DNA of 32,408 nt from Armatimonadota bacterium (GTDB lineage Bacteria > Sysuimicrobiota > Sysuimicrobiia > Sysuimicrobiales > Sysuimicrobiaceae), in contig JANXCW010000019.1 of NCBI GenBank assembly GCA_025059775.1, positions 1-32,408 on the forward strand, written 5' to 3'. This document shows, piece after piece, positions 1,226 to 23,344 of this stretch (positions within the stretch are counted from its first letter, which is position 1; each line of letters begins with the position of its first letter). The position numbers were made by a program, and so were the translations under genes. The notes beneath the pieces are model-generated. The model was not told the origin of the DNA and searched no databases. It was given only the letters and a program-made list of their open reading frames with translations.

Positions 1226-2545
1226 TTAGGGCCTCGGCGGCCAGCTGGGCGGCCAGCTGGGCATGGGCTTGGGAGAGGGAGTCGGCGTGGGGCTCGGCGA
1301 AGGGGTGGGGGAGGGAGTGGGCGAAGGCGTGGGGCTTGCACCTGTGCACTCCACCGCCCTGCGGGCGTTGATCCGGCCCCGGGCGAAGGGGTTTCCAGCT
1401 ACCGGGTCAGTAAAGTTCTCAATGCACGCGCGGACCGCGGAGGCGGTCGCCTGGCGCGTCCACACGAGTCCTGCGAGCCCGGCCACGTGCGGGGTGGCCA
1501 TGGAGGTCCCGCTATACGAGGCATATCCCCCGGGTACGGTGCTGAGGATGGAGACCCCCGGAGCCCCCACGTCTACCCAGGTCCCATAGTTGGAGAAACT
1601 CGCCCGGCTGTCCGAGGGGGTGGTGGCGCCCACGGCGATGCAGTTCGAGTAGTAGGCGGGGTAGCTGGGCAAAGGGGAGCCGCTGTTGCCCGCCGCACAG
1701 GCCAGGACTACCCCCCGGTTCCAGGCGTAGTTCACCGCGCTCTGCAGGGTAGCACTGGGGCTACTCCCCCCCAGGCTCAGGTTGATGACCTTTGCCCCGT
1801 TGTCCGCGGCCCAGAGGATCCCGCTTGCGACCCAGGACAAAAACCCATACCCGTCGTCGCCGAGCACCTTGCCGTTCATCAGACGTGCCCCCCAGTCCAT
1901 GCCCGCGATCCCCGTGGCGTTGTGGGTGACCGCGGCGGCGATCCCGGCCACATGGGTGCCGTGGCCGTTCTGGTCGTCTGCCGTGGGTGAGGTGGTGAAG
2001 TTCTGGGAGGCCACGACCTTGCCGCTGAGGTCCGGGTGGGTGGAGCGGATGCCGGTGTCCAGGATGGCGATGCGTACAGACGGGCTACCCGTGGTCGTGT
2101 CCCACGCGGCAGGGGCCTCCACCTTCTGCGGGCCCCACTGGGAACTAAACATGGGGTCATTGGGAACGAGCAGGGCCTGCACCACCCCATCCGGCTCCGC
2201 GAACTCCGTGACGGGGTCCGCGGTGTACACCCCGAGGGCGTTCCCGACCGTATTCGCGGGCACCTGGACCACCAGTACGCCGATCTGCGGGAGGACCTGC
2301 ACCACCCGTCCGCCCACCCGGCGATGGAGGGCCTCCATCTTCTCGGTCGGCGTCCCCGGCCGGAACCGTACCAGCACCCGGTCCGGAGCGTGCGGGCCCG
2401 CCTGCTGGAGGGTGACCTGGGGCTGAGAAGGGGAGTCGGGTGGGCGGTGTACCGGGCCCTGTCCCTGCAGGGTCCCACAGGCGACCGCAAGGAGTAAAGC
2501 TACCCCCGCTCCGAGGAGCGGAGTCCACGACCGGAATTCCCTCAT
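1226..2545 (-). CDS. Lipoprotein subtilisin-like serine protease (peptidase S8, thermitase type)
   Basis: A 439-residue secreted endopeptidase. Signal segment with lipobox VACG (Cys23) for lipid anchoring. Residues about 55-127 form a propeptide-like domain (DRVLVRFRPG ... VTEFAEPDG) of the fervidolysin/I9 type that would assist folding and inhibit the zymogen. The S8 catalytic domain spans about 140-400 with the full triad: Asp163 in AILDTGI, His195 in NGHGTHVAG, Ser348 in GTSMATPHVAG, plus oxyanion Asn287 in AAGN. The C-terminus is a Ser/Pro/Thr repeat tail (SPTPSPTPS) of about 35 residues, a typical cell-wall or surface spacer, encoded by a G-rich low-complexity stretch at about 1226-1340. 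The ATG at 2545 is preceded by GGAGA about 7 bp away. It probably degrades external protein or processes surface proteins. A second S8 lipoprotein lies at 10127-11536. Confidence 0.95.
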   Translation of the reverse strand: MREFRSWTPLLGAGVALLLAVACGTLQGQGPVHRPPDSPSQPQVTLQQAGPHAPDRVLVRFRPGTPTEKMEALHRRVGGRVVQVLPQIGVLVVQVPANTVGNALGVYTADPVTEFAEPDGVVQALLVPNDPMFSSQWGPQKVEAPAAWDTTTGSPSVRIAILDTGIRSTHPDLSGKVVASQNFTTSPTADDQNGHGTHVAGIAAAVTHNATGIAGMDWGARLMNGKVLGDDGYGFLSWVASGILWAADNGAKVINLSLGGSSPSATLQSAVNYAWNRGVVLACAAGNSGSPLPSYPAYYSNCIAVGATTPSDSRASFSNYGTWVDVGAPGVSILSTVPGGYASYSGTSMATPHVAGLAGLVWTRQATASAVRACIENFTDPVAGNPFARGRINARRAVECTGASPTPSPTPSPTPSPSPTPTPSPKPMPSWPPSWPPRP

Positions 2546-4727: not shown

Positions 4728-6023
4728 ATGCCATTCACAGTGAAGGATCTGCAGGGTTTGCTGCGGCTGCTGGACAGGCAGCCGGAGTGGAAGGACGCTC
4801 TCCGGGCCAGTCTGCTGGGAGAGGAGTTCTTGGCGCTCCCGAAGTTGGTGCGCGGCCTGTTGCGTGCCCAGCAGGCCACGGAGCGCCAGGTCCGGACCCT
4901 GGTCGAGGCTCAGGAGCGGACCGAAGAAGCGCTGCGCCAGCTGGCGGAAGCGCAGGCGGGGACAGAGGGGGAGCTGCGCCGACTGGCGGAGGCGCAGGCG
5001 CGGCTGGCGGAGGCGCAGGCGCGGACCGAGGGGGAACTGCGCCGGCTGGCGGAGGCGCAGGCGCGGCTGGCGGAGGCGCAGCAACGGACGGAGGAGCAGG
5101 TTCGGGGGTTAGCGGAAGCACAGGCGAGGACGGAGGAGCAGGTTCGGGCCCTGGCGGAGGCACAGGGTCGGATGGAGGGGGAACTGCGCCGGCTGGCGGA
5201 GGCGCAGGCGAGGACGGAGGGGGAACTGCGCCGGCTGGCGGAGGCGCAGGCGCGGCTGGCGGAGGCGCAAGCGCGGACAGAGGGGGAGCTGCGCCGGCTG
5301 GCGGAAGCGCAGGCGCGGACCGAGGAGCGCATGGATCGTCTGGAGCAGACTGTAGCCCGCCTCGCAGAGGCCCAACTCCGGACCGAGGAACGCCTGGCCA
5401 GACTCGAGGAGCGCACGGATCGCCTGGAAGAAACTGTAGCCCGCCTCGCAGAGGCCCAACTCCGGACCGAGGAGCGCCTGGCCAGACTCGAGGAGCGCAC
5501 GGATCGCCTGGAAGAAACTGTGGCCCGCCTCGCAGAGGCCCAACTCCGGACCGAGGAGCAGATCCGGGAACTCGTGGAGGCCCAGCGGGTCACAAACCTC
5601 CGCCTGGGCCGCCTCGAGGACGTCTTGGGTCTCACCATCGAGGAGCACGCGGAGGACATCCTGCGGCTGGTGCTCCGGGAAAAGGGGTTGGAGATCCTGG
5701 AGGAGCCGAGGTCTGTGCCCGTGGACACAGAGGGGCAGGTGGACCTGGTGGCGGTGTGCCGGGACCCTCAAGGGCGGCGGGTGGCGGTGGTGGTGGAATC
5801 CAAGGCCCGGCTTTCGGTCTCCGCGGTGCGGCGGTGGGCGAGTCGGATCGGATCCGCGGAGTTTCGGCGCCGACTGGAGGAAGCAGGGCTGCCCGGACCT
5901 TACCTCGCATATGTGTTCGGGATCCGGATGGACCGGGCCGTAGAGGAGGCGATCCGGGAAGCGGGACTCGGGCTATTGGGAAGCCGGGGAGAGGTGATAG
6001 CGCCATCGGGATTGCTGGAGTGA
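4728..6023 (+). CDS. Long coiled-coil protein with C-terminal PD-(D/E)XK-like nuclease domain (DUF3782-like)
   Basis: A 431-residue protein in three parts. Residues 1-60 form a conserved N-terminal helical region. Residues about 60-285 are an almost pure heptad coiled coil made of repeats of RTEGELRRLAEAQA and, later, of a 28-residue unit. Residues about 290-431 form an alpha/beta domain with the PD-(D/E)XK signature: Asp339 in QVDLVAV and Glu357-x-Lys359 in VVVESKAR. Proteins of this build are usually annotated as DUF3782 or, misleadingly, as chordopoxvirus fusion proteins; their role is unknown, and a DNA-cleaving or DNA-binding function is inferred from the motif. The repeats evolve by slippage, so length should vary among strains. 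The gene is preceded by a TATAAT with no ribosome binding site, and is convergent with 6086-6994. Confidence 0.8.
   Translation: MPFTVKDLQGLLRLLDRQPEWKDALRASLLGEEFLALPKLVRGLLRAQQATERQVRTLVEAQERTEEALRQLAEAQAGTEGELRRLAEAQARLAEAQARTEGELRRLAEAQARLAEAQQRTEEQVRGLAEAQARTEEQVRALAEAQGRMEGELRRLAEAQARTEGELRRLAEAQARLAEAQARTEGELRRLAEAQARTEERMDRLEQTVARLAEAQLRTEERLARLEERTDRLEETVARLAEAQLRTEERLARLEERTDRLEETVARLAEAQLRTEEQIRELVEAQRVTNLRLGRLEDVLGLTIEEHAEDILRLVLREKGLEILEEPRSVPVDTEGQVDLVAVCRDPQGRRVAVVVESKARLSVSAVRRWASRIGSAEFRRRLEEAGLPGPYLAYVFGIRMDRAVEEAIREAGLGLLGSRGEVIAPSGLLE
4942..5338 (+). repeat. In-frame tandem repeats of about 21/42 bp encoding a coiled coil
   Basis: Units encoding LAEAQAR (7 residues) and RTEGELRRLAEAQA (14 residues) alternate without breaking the frame. 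Base identity between units is high, for example repeated GAACTGCGCCGGCTGGCGGA, so recent expansion by slippage or unequal exchange is likely. Confidence 0.75.
5351..5558 (+). repeat. 84-bp tandem repeat, about 2.5 copies, inside the coiled-coil gene
   Basis: Near-identical units begin at 5351, 5435 and 5519, exactly 84 bp (28 residues, four heptads) apart. They differ at only a few positions. The third copy loses similarity after about 5558. Confidence 0.8.
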
Positions 6024-8461: not shown

Positions 8462-8549
8462 GGGGCCGGAACGCCTCAATAGACCTCTGGAGGGGAGCGC
8501 CCGTCCTGGGGGAGAGGTGGATGGTTTCTCCTCCTTGGGAGCGGACGCT

Positions 8550-10130
8550 GTGGAAATTCGTCGGACGCGGGAAAATGGAGCGGTGCAGCGTCGGAGCATC
8601 CTCTGGACCCTGGCAATTCTGATCGCCTCCTCTGCGTGCGGGGGAGGAGCCTCCTCTCCGGACCTCGTGGGAGGCCTGTCCGGCTACGTCTTCGCGGGAA
8701 TCGGAGGGGACGGGAACTTCTCGGGAGAGCCCCTTCCCGGAATCCCGGTGCGCTATGAATCCGGAGGCGAGGTCGTTACGGTCACCACGGATCAGAACGG
8801 CCTTTTCCGCACGGGCCGGACCCCCACGGGCTCCTTCACCCTCCACGTGCTCCCTCCCCCGGGCGTAGCGGCCGCCCGATCCCTGTACGGCGTCTCCGCG
8901 ACGGAGACGGGTTTGATGCTGCGGTTCTATCTGCCCTTGCGCAGGCCTGTGGGAAGTTCTCCCCGCGGGACCGGGAACCGCCCCCTTTCCGCTGTGACCG
9001 GCACCCTGTTGGACCCCGAGGGCTCATCGCAGTCCGGGTCTGTGCCGCCTGGTAAAACCCCGGGGGAGCCGGGAACCGTGGGGTTCGTCTGGTGGGGGGC
9101 TTACCGGTTTCAGTCCGCCACCTGCCCCCGCTGCTACTCCACGGTGGCGGGACCGGACGGGAGGTTCGAGATCCAAGCCTTCCTGGGCGGGCAGATGCTC
9201 GGGCGTACCTTCCCCTTCTTCGCGGGCAACTACGACGGCGTGAGCGCTGACGGACTCATCGCATACTACACCGCCTACGCCTTCCTGCCCGCGGTGGACG
9301 CCCTGAGCTCTCGGCCCACGGACCTGGGCCGGGTGCTGCTGGTCCCCTCCACGGGGGCTCTCCCGGTCCACTACGACGACACCACCCTGAGCCTTGCGGC
9401 CAGCTACGGGCCGGGTGGCGTGATCTACACCTTCGTGCAGTTGTACACCGGCCCCGCGGGTGACCTCCTGGAACTCGCGGAGGCCGCAAACGGCCCCCTC
9501 CCGGTTGGTACAGCCCTGCCCGTCCAGTCCATCCCGGTGCCGCAGATCCAGGAGGCGGAGTCCCGGTACTTCGTGGCCACGAGTTTCGTGCTGGACGGCC
9601 GGGCCCAAACCCAACCGGAGGTGGCGGCCACCCAGGTGTTCCGGATTCCGGGGCAGCCCCTGCGGGTAGGCCATCTCCGGCCACCCCGGATCCTCCGGGT
9701 CGAGGACCGAGGCCGCCCCTCGTTCTTCTGGACGCCGAGCCTCGGCGCCACGGTACACGCGGCGGTAGTCCTCGATGCCTCCTCCTCGGAGGTGTGGACG
9801 GGGATCCTGGGCGGGGAGGGGAGCGCCGCCGCCCTCCCCCTGGACCTCCCACCGGGGTCGTACCGGGTGTTTGTGTTCGCAAGCGATGCGGCCCGACCTG
9901 CGGATCTCGCCGCGGCCGGCCGGAGGCCTCCTCTTCTGGAAGCCCTCCGGGGTCTGGGTTCTCTCAAGATCCCGGGGAGGGACGTACGGGCCCTCGGGGA
10001 TGCCCTCCGCACCCTGCGCACCGCGTGGGTGACCCGCGACCCTGGGCAGCTGCTCCTCAAGGGTGCCGCGCCTGCTTCCCGGGCGGTGCGGGAGGCGGTA
10101 AGTGCACCGGGGGGGTTCTGGGTGCCGTGA
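8550..10130 (+). CDS. Large lipoprotein with a carboxypeptidase-regulatory-like domain
   Basis: About 526 residues. A hydrophobic segment with a lipobox (IASSACG) marks a lipoprotein. Directly after it comes a beta-sandwich of the carboxypeptidase-regulatory type (LSGYVFAG ... LPGIPVRYESGGEVVTVTTDQNGLFRTGRTPTGSFTLHV), as in many cell-surface proteins. The remainder is beta-rich, with a Cys cluster (CPRCYS), and has no recognised enzyme motif. The start is uncertain: the GTG at 8550 has GGGAG 8 bp upstream, while GTG codons at 8517 and 8583 are also in frame. Its stop overlaps the start of the downstream protease (GTGA), so the two are probably translated together; this protein may be a partner or surface scaffold of that protease. 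Confidence 0.7.
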   Translation: MEIRRTRENGAVQRRSILWTLAILIASSACGGGASSPDLVGGLSGYVFAGIGGDGNFSGEPLPGIPVRYESGGEVVTVTTDQNGLFRTGRTPTGSFTLHVLPPPGVAAARSLYGVSATETGLMLRFYLPLRRPVGSSPRGTGNRPLSAVTGTLLDPEGSSQSGSVPPGKTPGEPGTVGFVWWGAYRFQSATCPRCYSTVAGPDGRFEIQAFLGGQMLGRTFPFFAGNYDGVSADGLIAYYTAYAFLPAVDALSSRPTDLGRVLLVPSTGALPVHYDDTTLSLAASYGPGGVIYTFVQLYTGPAGDLLELAEAANGPLPVGTALPVQSIPVPQIQEAESRYFVATSFVLDGRAQTQPEVAATQVFRIPGQPLRVGHLRPPRILRVEDRGRPSFFWTPSLGATVHAAVVLDASSSEVWTGILGGEGSAAALPLDLPPGSYRVFVFASDAARPADLAAAGRRPPLLEALRGLGSLKIPGRDVRALGDALRTLRTAWVTRDPGQLLLKGAAPASRAVREAVSAPGGFWVP

Positions 10131-11536
10131 GGAAATCGCTCATCCGCTTGGGAATCGTGGGAGCCGTGCTCCTGCTGGTCGCGTGCGGATCCGGACCGAT
10201 CCCGCGGCCCTCCAGCCCTATCTCGGAGATCGTTCCTGGAGAGATCCTCGTCAGGTACCACTTCGGTTCCGGGTTGGCAGGCCAGGCCGTGGTGCGGGGT
10301 GCGTCCGTGGTGCGAACCGCCCGGTTTCGCCTCCCAATTGGCACCTACCACCTCGCCTTGGTCCGGGTACCGGTGGGGGAAGAGGCCGCGTACATCGAAC
10401 GGTTCCGGCAGCGACCAGAGGTGGCGTACGCGGAGTACAACTACCGGGTGCGCCGGGTGGAGAGCCAGACCCTCCTGCCTGGGGATCTGCGGGTGCACCA
10501 AAGCGGTGAACTAGATTGGGCCGGCCTCGCGGACCCCAAACTGCGGGAGTGCGATCCGGCCTTCGAGGTGCGGCGGCTCAACGGTGAAGTCTCCCGGTGT
10601 ACGGATGCGGAGCGGAACGCTTCCTGGCAGTGGAACCTCTGGCGGATCCGGGCTCCTCAGGCCTGGCGGATCTCAGACGGGGAGGGCGTGGTGGTGGCGG
10701 TGGTGGACGAGGGGGTAGATCTCTCGCACCCGGAGTTCGCGGGCCGGCTCGTGCTCCCCCGGGAGGGATGCCCTACGGACACCGTGGACGGGGACTTCGA
10801 TCCAGGGGATTCCGGGGGGCACGGGACCCACGTGGCGGGGATTGTGGCCGCGGGTGCAGACGGGCTTGGGATCGTGGGCGTGGCCCCTCGGGCGAGGGTC
10901 CTGCCGATCCGCGCGCTGGGGCCCTTGGGAGGCACCACCTTCACCGTGGTGAGCGGGATCCTGTGCGCGGCGGAGCACGGGGCCGCGGTGCTGAACGGCT
11001 CGTGGGGCGGGGTGGCGTACTCCGCGCTGGAGCTGGATGCCCTGCGGGCGGTGGTGGCCTCCGGGGTGTTCGTGGTGTTCGCCGCGGGCAACCTCTACGA
11101 CGCCGGCAACCCCAGGGTGTACCCCGCGGCCTTCGCGGAGGTCGTCCCGGGCGTCGTCGCGGTGGGAGCCACCACCCCTACCGACCGCATCGCCTCCTTC
11201 TCCTCCTCGGGCCGGTGGGTCACCCTGGCGGCCCCGGGCACCACCGTCTACTCCACCCTCCCCACGGCTCAGGGGTCCTACGGGTTCCTGCAGGGGACCA
11301 GCATGGCCGCGCCGCACGTGGCGGGGCTGTCGGCCCTTATGCTTTCCCGGAACCCGGGACTCTCCCCCGCCCGCGTGCAGTCCCTGCTGCAGGCCACCGC
11401 GTTTGCCCCTTGCCCGGAATATCCGAGACCCGACTGGGACCGCCCGGGCTCGTGTGGCAGCTTCACGATGGGGCCCGGGGCGTACGGATATGGCATCGTG
11501 GACGCCTGGGCCGCCCTCTCCGCGACCGGGAGGTGA
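10127..11536 (+). CDS. Second lipoprotein subtilisin-like serine protease (peptidase S8)
   Basis: A 469-residue secreted protease. Lipobox LVAC (Cys20). Residues about 33-105 form a propeptide-like domain (PGEILVRYHFG ... PEVAYAEYNYRVRRV) followed by an unusual linker of about 60 residues with two Cys. The catalytic domain carries Asp194 in VVDEGVD, His232 in GGHGTHVAG, Asn322 in AAGN and Ser392 in GTSMAAPHVAG. A Cys-containing extension (CPEYPRPDWDRPGSC) precedes the C-terminus; unlike the protease at 1226-2545 there is no Ser/Pro repeat tail. The GTG start at 10127 overlaps the preceding lipoprotein stop. It is followed by an M48 metalloprotease on the same strand, so the three genes may form one unit for surface proteolysis. 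Confidence 0.95.
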   Translation: MRKSLIRLGIVGAVLLLVACGSGPIPRPSSPISEIVPGEILVRYHFGSGLAGQAVVRGASVVRTARFRLPIGTYHLALVRVPVGEEAAYIERFRQRPEVAYAEYNYRVRRVESQTLLPGDLRVHQSGELDWAGLADPKLRECDPAFEVRRLNGEVSRCTDAERNASWQWNLWRIRAPQAWRISDGEGVVVAVVDEGVDLSHPEFAGRLVLPREGCPTDTVDGDFDPGDSGGHGTHVAGIVAAGADGLGIVGVAPRARVLPIRALGPLGGTTFTVVSGILCAAEHGAAVLNGSWGGVAYSALELDALRAVVASGVFVVFAAGNLYDAGNPRVYPAAFAEVVPGVVAVGATTPTDRIASFSSSGRWVTLAAPGTTVYSTLPTAQGSYGFLQGTSMAAPHVAGLSALMLSRNPGLSPARVQSLLQATAFAPCPEYPRPDWDRPGSCGSFTMGPGAYGYGIVDAWAALSATGR

Positions 11537-20912: not shown

Positions 20913-21275
20913 ATGAACCGGAGACGGATCGGCGCGGGGGCAGAAGAGGCGGCGGCAGACCTTCTGCGGCGCAAGGGGTACCGCCTCCTCGACCGCAACG
21001 TCCGGTTCCCCTTCGGGGAGCTGGACCTGGTGTGCGAGCAGGCGGGGGTCGTGGTGTTCGTGGAGGTGAAGGCCCGGTCGGGGACAGCACATGGGCATCC
21101 GTTTGAGGCGGTCACCCCGCGCAAGCAAAAGCAGCTCGGTCGGCTCGCCCTCGCCTACCTGCAGCGGAAGGGGTTTGTGAACCGCCCCTGCCGGTTCGAT
21201 GTGGTGGCGGTGCACCTCGATCCGGAGGGACGTCCCGTACGGGTGGAAGTCCTGCAGGACGCCTTCCGGTTCTAG
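20913..21275 (+). CDS. yraN: YraN/UPF0102 family endonuclease-like protein
   Basis: 120 residues, Holliday-junction-resolvase-like fold of the PD-(D/E)XK superfamily. N-terminal helix RIGAGAEEAAADLLRRKGYRLLDRNVRFPFGELDLV with the catalytic Glu and Asp of GELDLV, then FVEVKARSG with Glu-x-Lys. Function in cells is not settled; roles in DNA processing are suspected. ATG at 20913. It follows rnhB as in many genomes. Its stop TAG shares the palindrome CTAG with the stop of the convergent gene. Confidence 0.93.
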   Translation: MNRRRIGAGAEEAAADLLRRKGYRLLDRNVRFPFGELDLVCEQAGVVVFVEVKARSGTAHGHPFEAVTPRKQKQLGRLALAYLQRKGFVNRPCRFDVVAVHLDPEGRPVRVEVLQDAFRF

Positions 21276-22048
21276 CGCCGGTGCGGGCCCCGGTCGGGAA
21301 CCTCCCGCCGGGGTACGAGTACGTAGTGGGGCACCGCCCACTCCACGATGGCCGCCCGGTTCAGGGCCGCTACCTTCTCCGCGATCTGATGCGGCCGCGG
21401 AGCCCGCAGCACGTAGGTTCGGCCGTCCGCTTCCACCGAGGCCACTCGGAGACCCAGATCCCGCAGCAGCCGCTCGATCTGCTCTGCCGTCGCCCACGGG
21501 AAGAACCGTACGCGGATCATGCCCGGCACGAACACCTTCCGGAAGGGTTCGCCTGGACCTGGGACGGTCGCCCCGCCCCGGAGGTCGGGGGGAAGGATCT
21601 CGATGGTGACCCGGGGAAGCAGCACCGGAGGTGCTCCTCTGGGGAAGGTGCGCGGGGGAAAGATGGCTTCCACCACGTACCGGCCCGGAGGCACGGGCTG
21701 CCCTGCGTTGTCTACCTGCGTCCACGTTTCCTCAAAACGGATCTCCGAGCCGGGTTGGAGCACCAAGCTCCCCACCACCTGGGCGAACATTCTGTCGTGG
21801 GACCACTGCCAGATCGTGGTCCCGTCCAGCCGGAGGACCCGGAAGTCGTATCGCTGACTGGTACCGAACGTAAAGGTCATCGCCCGGAACCCGCGGTTGC
21901 GTACCTGGAGCACCATCTGGACGGGCTCCCCCGGCACGTACCGTGCCCGATCCGTCGAAACCCCCACCTCTACGTCCCCCATCCGCACCACGTGAGCAGG
22001 ACCCACGGTGGCCAGCACCGCCATGGACAGGATGAGAAAGGCCCGCAT
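21272..22048 (-). CDS. Secreted BsuPI-domain protein with a subtilisin-propeptide-like C-terminus
   Basis: 258 residues. A signal peptide (AFLILSMAVLATVGPAHV) leads to a BsuPI-type beta-sandwich at about residues 30-130 (YVPGEPVQMVLQVRNRG, YDFRVLRLDG, IWQWSHDRMFAQ, FEETWTQVDNAG, PPGRYVVEAIF). BsuPI is the Bacillus intracellular proteinase inhibitor; secreted relatives are of unknown function. Residues about 175-250 read MIRVRFFPWATAEQIERLL ... GLRVASVE ... IVEWAVPHYVLVP, which follows the pattern of the propeptides of the two subtilisins in this window (VLVRF-P, then V-E/AxAEP/PN). The ATG at 22048 is chosen because GGAGG lies 6 bp upstream. An inhibitory role towards those proteases is inferred. 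Confidence 0.7.
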   Translation of the reverse strand: MRAFLILSMAVLATVGPAHVVRMGDVEVGVSTDRARYVPGEPVQMVLQVRNRGFRAMTFTFGTSQRYDFRVLRLDGTTIWQWSHDRMFAQVVGSLVLQPGSEIRFEETWTQVDNAGQPVPPGRYVVEAIFPPRTFPRGAPPVLLPRVTIEILPPDLRGGATVPGPGEPFRKVFVPGMIRVRFFPWATAEQIERLLRDLGLRVASVEADGRTYVLRAPRPHQIAEKVAALNRAAIVEWAVPHYVLVPRREVPDRGPHRR

Positions 22049-22288: not shown

Positions 22289-23344
22289 ATGAGGGCGGCG
22301 CAGATGGTGGAGCATCGTAAGCCGCTGGTGGTCCAGGAGGTTGCGGATCCGCGTCCCGGACCGCAGGACGCCGTGCTCCGGGTGGAGGCGTGCGGGATCT
22401 GCCGCAGCGACTGGCACGCGTGGATGGGAGATTGGACGTGGATCGGCTTCCGACCTCAACTCCCCCTCACGCTGGGGCATGAGCTGGCGGGAGAGGTGGT
22501 GGAGGTCGGCTCGGAGGTGCGGCGGACGAAGGTGGGGGAACGGGTGACGGTTCCCTTCCACCTCGGCTGCTCGTACTGCCCCTATTGCCTCAGCGGACGG
22601 CCGAACCTCTGCGACAACCTGCAGATGGTAGGATTTTCCTTCGACGGAGGCTATGCCCAGTATGTCCGCATCCCCAACGCGGACTTCAATCTCATCCGGC
22701 TACCGGACGCGGTGGACTTCGTGGCCGCGGCCGCCCTGGGATGCCGGTACATGACCGCCTACCACGCGGTGCTGCACCGGGGTCGGGTGCAGGCGGGGGA
22801 GTGGGTAGTGGTGCACGGGGTTGGGGGAGTGGGGCTGAGCGCGGTGCAGATCGCGAATGCCGCAGGCGCCCGGGTGGTGGCCGTGGACGTGGACGAGGAG
22901 AAGCTGGCGCGGGCCCGCCAGGAGGGCGCGGTTGCCACCGTGAATGCTCGCAAGGAGAACGTGCCGGAGGCGGTCAAACAGATCACGGGCGGGGGGGCAC
23001 ACCTCTCCGTGGACGCCCTGGGGATCCGGGAGACCATCCAGAATTCCATCTTCAGCCTGCGCAAGGGAGGTCGCCACGTGCAGGTGGGGCTCACCACGCA
23101 GGCTGAACAAGGGGTGGTGTCCCTCCCCACGGACATGATGGTGGGGATGGAGCTGGAGTTCTACGGGAGCGTGGGGAACCCCCACCCCCAGTACGCGGGC
23201 CTGCTAGGCCTCGTGGAGCAGGGCAAGCTGAATCCGAGAAGCCTGGTGGGGCGGACGGTTTCCCTGGAGGAGGTGAACGAGGTCCTGCAGGCCATGACGG
23301 AGTTCCGCACCCTGGGGTTCACGGTGATCACGCGGTTCCAGTAA
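22289..23344 (+). CDS. Zinc-dependent medium-chain alcohol dehydrogenase
   Basis: 351 residues, oxidises alcohols (or reduces aldehydes) with NAD(P). Catalytic zinc ligands Cys38 in CGICRSDWH, His64-Glu65 in LGHE and Cys152 in ALGCRYMTAYHA. The structural zinc site is complete: Cys94, Cys97, Cys100 and Cys108 in CSYCPYCLSGRPNLC. The coenzyme fold shows GVGGVG at 177-182 and the acidic VAVDVDEEKL, which favours NAD over NADP. It resembles general zinc ADHs of the ADH6/AdhP type; the substrate cannot be told. ATG at 22289, with GGGAGG 8 bp upstream. It stands before a branched-chain amino acid transporter, but 117 bp separate them and a metabolic link is not evident. Confidence 0.93.
   Translation: MRAAQMVEHRKPLVVQEVADPRPGPQDAVLRVEACGICRSDWHAWMGDWTWIGFRPQLPLTLGHELAGEVVEVGSEVRRTKVGERVTVPFHLGCSYCPYCLSGRPNLCDNLQMVGFSFDGGYAQYVRIPNADFNLIRLPDAVDFVAAAALGCRYMTAYHAVLHRGRVQAGEWVVVHGVGGVGLSAVQIANAAGARVVAVDVDEEKLARARQEGAVATVNARKENVPEAVKQITGGGAHLSVDALGIRETIQNSIFSLRKGGRHVQVGLTTQAEQGVVSLPTDMMVGMELEFYGSVGNPHPQYAGLLGLVEQGKLNPRSLVGRTVSLEEVNEVLQAMTEFRTLGFTVITRFQ

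Follow-up and report, generated by a model that had tools for sequence, protein, structure and literature searches.

The window, a stretch of 32,408 nucleotides from an Armatimonadota bacterium (contig JANXCW010000019.1), carries on its minus strand a gene for a 258 aa protein in which a BsuPI domain is joined to a domain of the subtilase-propeptide type (NPro), and at some distance two S8 proteases with NPro propeptides of their own. The domain order of the fusion protein, taken from the open reading frame and Pfam, is signal peptide, BsuPI, NPro; the Pfam scan found no S8 domain in the frame. The features are:

21272..22048, minus strand: BsuPI-NPro fusion gene, 258 aa; ATG at 22048 and stop at 21272, the G001 orthologue having its start codon at the same position
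21998..22048, minus strand: signal peptide, residues 1-17 (MRAFLILSMAVLATVGP), read from the sequence; residues 2-12 are helical in the model
21659..21955, minus strand: BsuPI domain (PF12690), residues 32-130, by Pfam and by the sequence and structure of PDB 3isy
21773..21811, minus strand: conserved wedge loop of the BsuPI domain, WQWSHDRMFAQVV, residues 80-92, placed by alignment to 3isy, conservation and the docking model in PMC3901451
21311..21538, minus strand: subtilase-propeptide-like (NPro) domain, residues 171-246, by PF22148, hhalign, AF2 and shuffles
21305..21325, minus strand: C-terminal tail YVLVPRR, residues 242-248, kept in four orthologues, positioned like the tail that a propeptide inserts into the S8 active site
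1226..2545, minus strand: S8 protease with NPro propeptide, putative target, by Pfam
10127..11536, plus strand: S8 protease with NPro propeptide, probable lipoprotein, putative target, by Pfam

The fusion gene overlaps a convergent gene (20913-21275) by 4 bases at its 3' end, and its upstream neighbour (22289-23344) is divergent; thus the gene stands alone. Promoter and terminator patterns were looked for around it and none was found. The hydrophobic N-terminus is common to all orthologues in the alignment, and the signal peptide read from it supports the export that an earlier note on this DNA had assumed. Elsewhere in the window, an open reading frame at 4728-6023 consists of long near-identical coiled-coil repeats (LAEAQARTEGELRR) followed by a C-terminal globular part; frames with a similar beginning (MPFTVKD) lie near S8 loci in G001.

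The BsuPI domain

The assignment of the N-terminal domain to the BsuPI type, also made in the earlier note, is secure: the Pfam match scores 83.8 bits against a curated cut-off of 22.9 (E 9.2e-24, profile positions 3-96 of 101). PDB 3isy is matched at the sequence level with an E-value of 3e-07, and Foldseek with the full-length model again ranks it first (E 1.8e-07, target-normalised TM 0.69, rmsd 8.1 over 137 columns), the BsuPI part being predicted to have the Ig fold of IPI. The wedge loop WSHDRMFAQ is kept in the fusion, and its Q90 aligns with Gln67 of Bacillus subtilis IPI, the proposed P1 residue in a docking model of that protein (PMC3901451). Inhibition of Isp1 by B. subtilis IPI was reported; the inhibitor status of BsuPI proteins is disputed, even for IPI, and the family has been removed from MEROPS (PMC3901451).

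The propeptide-type domain

Four lines of evidence from profiles and modelling agree that the C-terminal domain is a subtilase-propeptide domain with a predicted propeptide fold. Residues 173-240 match the Fervidolysin_NPro-like family (PF22148) with 24.5 bits (curated cut-off 21). A model built from S8 propeptides only gives the domain 40.3 bits, the best of 20,000 shuffles reaching 12.9, and a profile-profile comparison (hhalign) of free-standing NPro domains with ten S8 propeptides gives an E-value of 3e-13 and a probability of 98%; a chance match is thereby excluded. In 386 genomes the profile of the free-standing domains, which contains no protease, retrieved mostly S8 proteases, each at the propeptide. 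The orthologues lie near the PF22148 cut-off (G001 22.8 and G004 18.8 bits by hmmscan; G002 25.1 and G004 21.0 in the genome search), and a free-standing relative in G014 (L038) falls under it with 16.0 bits by hmmscan.

The AF2 model of the NPro domain, made from five sequences with no S8 rows and no templates, has a pLDDT of 90, a pTM of 0.77 and the order E-H-E-E-H-E; strand-helix-strand-strand-helix-strand is the topology described for subtilisin propeptides (PMC6993865). Foldseek overlays the model on the PC1/3 prodomain bound to furin (9fid; TM 0.75, rmsd 1.9), on the subtilisin propeptide 1scj (TM 0.71, rmsd 2.1) and on the PCSK9 prodomain, with weak E-values (best 0.0075) that other ferredoxin-like folds equal, mostly at far worse superposition. 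The C-terminal profile retrieved no propeptide from the sequences of the PDB, and the structural claim therefore rests on the profile comparison and the predicted fold. A propeptide-like C-terminus had been claimed in the earlier note, with structure prediction and profile comparison named as ways to check it; both checks bear the claim out. The closing pattern VxExAxP, said there to be common to the fusion and the window proteases, is shared only loosely (IVEWAVPH in the fusion, VTEFAEPD in 1226-2545, VAYAEYNY in 10127-11536).

Tail and helix-capping positions

A propeptide bound to subtilisin rests against two helices of the enzyme that an acidic pair caps (Glu69 and Asp71 in BPN'), with its C-terminal tail occupying the substrate cleft (PMC6993865). 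The tail pattern YVL[VL]PRR is conserved in all four fusion orthologues, and the G002 and G004 proteins stop at the tail or one residue past it, approximately where propeptide cleavage would fall. By Pfam and alignment, the fusion has a propeptide domain with its tail outside a protease.

The acidic pair is replaced by Val239 and His241. Among the five members of its clade (the four fusions and the L038 protein), the Glu69 position is Val in the fusions and Ala in L038; the Asp71 position is Asp in three (G002, G004 and L038) and His in two. By inspection of the alignments, most S8 propeptides keep Glu at the Glu69 position, but some true ones have Gln, Tyr or Gly there, and the pair is therefore a typical rather than a defining feature. 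Even so, these replacements count against an inhibitor. The loss of the capping Glu throughout the clade favours the main alternative, a docking module without inhibition, in which NPro would only bind S8 proteases (or other partners), BsuPI would be a non-inhibitory Ig-like module of the envelope, and the protein would recruit or sense proteases. A pure docking module would have no need of a conserved tail of the right length in the right place. We regard this alternative as unlikely, though not markedly so.

Conservation, distribution and origin

The fusion is present in the genome of the window (G000), G001 (77% identity), G002 (49%) and G004 (48%), and is conserved across two genera. Its neighbours are the same in G000 and G001 and different in G004 and G002, giving two gene contexts. 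Between G000 and G001, the BsuPI part and the NPro part each have a dN/dS of 0.19; both domains are under purifying selection. The values for the linker (~0.7) and the last ten residues (~1.0) come from short regions and a crude method.

A tree of 39 NPro domains unites the four fusion domains with the free-standing lipoprotein of G014 (L038) in one clade (support 99/98), separate from the propeptides of both window proteases; some S8 frames that are cut or interrupted carry the label free-standing in this tree. A special kinship with the propeptides of the window proteases, to which the earlier note had likened the domain, is not borne out by this grouping with free-standing copies. The relation of the C-terminal domain to S8 propeptides could also be explained by a relic, a truncated S8 protease gene joined by chance to a BsuPI gene. 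Occurrence in four genomes and two gene contexts, with purifying selection on both domains, shows that the fusion is neither an artefact nor a decayed protease; with its spread over two genera and a clade of its own apart from the sampled S8 propeptides, we give the relic next to no credence.

A contig search with the single fusion protein as query gave no match; with the four-row alignment it returned the two known relatives and proteins with BsuPI only. The NPro domain was absent from all 20 BsuPI loci examined outside the order, so within what was searched the fusion looks restricted to family f1. The other BsuPI proteins of the order are small, exported and without NPro, and in G003, of the same family, BsuPI is followed by another kind of C-terminal region, ~110 residues long and unmatched in Pfam (L042 12111-12947, adjoining an S8 gene). 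From these comparisons the NPro domain was most likely added to BsuPI within one family.

Several candidates were rejected. The apparent fusion on a Margulisiibacteriota contig (L050) has a stop that ends BsuPI, and the next gene is unrelated. Of the apparent free-standing NPro frames, L062, L063, L064 and part of L046 turned out to be S8 genes truncated where the contig or locus stops; that on contig C46 of G014 looks like an S8 gene with an interrupting stop codon. It is some of these frames that the tree labels as free-standing.

Association with S8 proteases

In both window S8 proteins NPro precedes the catalytic domain (46.0 and 22.1 bits, Pfam). The earlier note had taken these two proteases to be the cognate targets, a view that the genomic evidence does not favour: they lie 10 and 19 kb from the fusion gene in other transcription units, the sister genome alone shares this linkage, and the 10127-type protease is absent from G002 and G004, both of which have the fusion. 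No S8 gene was found near the fusion in G002 and G004, which also counts against an inhibitor of S8 proteases. In G014, the gene of the free-standing NPro lipoprotein (L038) is directly downstream of an S8 protease, a 47%-identical relative of 10127-11536, and this position is a suggestive hint of function. The window protease 10127-11536 is directly preceded by an exported, CarboxypepD_reg-like protein (8517-10130); a similar arrangement at L038 9496-11070 in G014 suggests a conserved pair.

For BsuPI genes in general, a link with S8 proteases is supported. Among the 32 small BsuPI genes in the 43 genomes of the order, 5 have an S8 catalytic domain no more than 1.5 kb away, against 0.16 expected; the Poisson value of 7e-7 is optimistic since two of the five cases are in one genus, which leaves four lineages. 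Four of the five neighbours are on the same strand, and the distance from the S8 gene to the BsuPI gene behind it is ~50-70 bases in G013 and G032 and ~400 in G003. Outside the order an S8 gene adjoins BsuPI in two of 20 loci (L138 and L149, from distant genomes). BsuPI genes directly beside S8 genes were seen in several unrelated lineages (L042, L065, L069, L061, contig C251 of G034, L138, L149). An S8 domain at E<=1e-8 was not found in four genomes that have a small BsuPI protein (G017, G019, G024, G035), which counts against a strict S8 role of BsuPI and would suit a docking module.

The lack of consistent linkage between the fusion and one protease type, and of a 10127-type protease in G002 and G004, might mean that foreign subtilisins are the target, the protein serving as self-protection from the proteases of neighbours and not as a brake on the cell's own enzymes. 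This would be compatible with the promiscuity that mesophilic subtilisin propeptides can show (PMC10580911), but the order's other BsuPI genes and free-standing NPro genes adjoin the cell's own S8 genes, and we consider a foreign target improbable. Propeptides of mesophilic subtilisins are also intramolecular chaperones (PMC6993865, PMC10580911), and the fusion might assist the folding of an S8 protease in trans. The S8 proteases examined closely already have their own propeptide, however, and in hyperthermophilic archaea the subtilase propeptides act mainly as inhibitors (PMC10580911); a folding role is thus very improbable.

Propeptide domains on anti-sigma factors

In three genomes (G000 on contig C26, G001 and G006) a zf-HC2 anti-sigma factor with one membrane segment has NPro at its C-terminus, which is probably extracytoplasmic; its gene is flanked by that of an ECF sigma factor on one side and that of an S8 protease on the other:

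L043 (own genome, contig C26) 4794-5372, minus strand: zf-HC2 anti-sigma factor with NPro
L061 14637-15215: zf-HC2 anti-sigma factor with NPro
L058 5034-5618: zf-HC2 anti-sigma factor with NPro

The anti-sigma NPro domains match S8 propeptides with an hhalign E-value of 2.6e-09; the one in G000 scores 20.4 bits against PF22148 in the protein scan (cut-off 21) and 23.4 in the genome search. They end directly after the capping motif and have no tail, an arrangement that suits docking or sensing better than inhibition and so lends weight to the docking alternative for the fusion. The anti-sigma factor with its tail-less NPro is possibly a sensor of protease state. The literature searched on ECF regulation mentions subtilases near sigma genes, and the combination of an anti-sigma factor with NPro was not found in it; this may be a more interesting lead than the fusion itself.

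Taken together, these settings suggest a tentative picture that we think less likely than not to hold. The subtilase propeptide of this lineage would be a mobile regulatory module used apart from proteases: fused to BsuPI in a bivalent secreted inhibitor, made by itself as a lipoprotein whose gene comes after an S8 gene, and attached to anti-sigma factors, where it may sense an S8 protease and couple transcription to extracytoplasmic proteolysis.

Two further NPro settings were seen. The frame at L060 1753-2310 (contig C259 of G040), which shortly precedes an S8-like gene that has a propeptide itself, carries one clear NPro (29.0 bits), possibly a second before it, and no evident signal peptide. 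At L097 1148-1537 (contig C38 of G129), a small exported free-standing NPro directly upstream of a frame with a C-terminal S8 part may be a split or trans-encoded propeptide.

Proposed function

The fusion protein probably restrains subtilisin-type proteases. As judged from sequence and models, the reading of an exported two-domain regulator of S8 proteases, most likely an inhibitor, has in our estimate slightly better than an even chance. This reading draws on the scores of both domains above curated cut-offs, on a C-terminal profile free of S8 sequences that retrieves mainly S8 propeptides, on the predicted fold with its prodomain overlays, on retention in four genomes and two contexts with a dN/dS of 0.19 between G000 and G001, and on the conserved tail, just past which two orthologues end. 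The proximity of BsuPI and S8 genes and the position of the closest free-standing NPro (L038) behind an S8 gene point the same way, as do the free-standing propeptide-like inhibitors of S8 proteases proven elsewhere (PMC6993865) and the report on IPI and Isp1 (PMC3901451). Against it stand the capping positions, the disputed status of BsuPI, the small BsuPI proteins in genomes without S8, and the G002 and G004 fusions away from S8 genes.

In the simplest version the protein would be a bivalent S8 inhibitor with one contact surface of the propeptide type and one of the BsuPI type. The NPro domain would dock in the manner of a propeptide against the helices in the catalytic domain of an S8 protease, the tail YVLVPRR would be laid in the substrate cleft like a cleavage product, and the BsuPI wedge would bind the same protease or a second one. 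Such a protein would hold extracytoplasmic proteolysis in check; inhibition, target and stoichiometry are what we infer for it.

Relation to known systems

Free-standing inhibitors of the propeptide type and BsuPI proteins are each known already. A single exported protein that combines the two was absent from the BsuPI loci examined outside this family; the published BsuPI architectures (2013: SLH, LysM, Gmad2, PG-binding and others) contain no NPro fusion, and the literature searched, a weak guide with most subscription papers outside its scope, held no such pairing, in keeping with the earlier note, which knew of none.

The N-terminal domain resembles BsuPI/IPI of B. subtilis (PF12690, PDB 3ISY, formerly MEROPS I22) in domain type, wedge loop and proposed P1 Gln. 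Unlike IPI, a single domain that is intracellular or alternatively secreted, the fusion is exported and joined to a propeptide domain. That BsuPI genes repeatedly adjoin S8 protease genes gives this disputed family a testable extracytoplasmic role. The C-terminal domain resembles the fervidolysin-type prodomain (PF22148) of S8 subtilases in sequence family, predicted fold and position of the C-terminal tail; it differs in having no S8 catalytic domain after it, in the lost equivalent of Glu69 and in its separate clade.

As in the free-standing I9-type inhibitors, several of which are exported, the propeptide-like domain is encoded apart from a protease. Those described in PMC6993865 (Pleurotus POIA1, the yeast proteinase B inhibitor, Arabidopsis SPI-1, TgMIC5 and Plasmodium SUB1-ProM) are eukaryotic, whereas the fusion is bacterial, is joined to BsuPI and has a putative inhibitory role. 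The best-described free-standing inhibitors of the propeptide type come from eukaryotes, and a bacterial one, joined to BsuPI and kept across genera, would show how such inhibitors arise.
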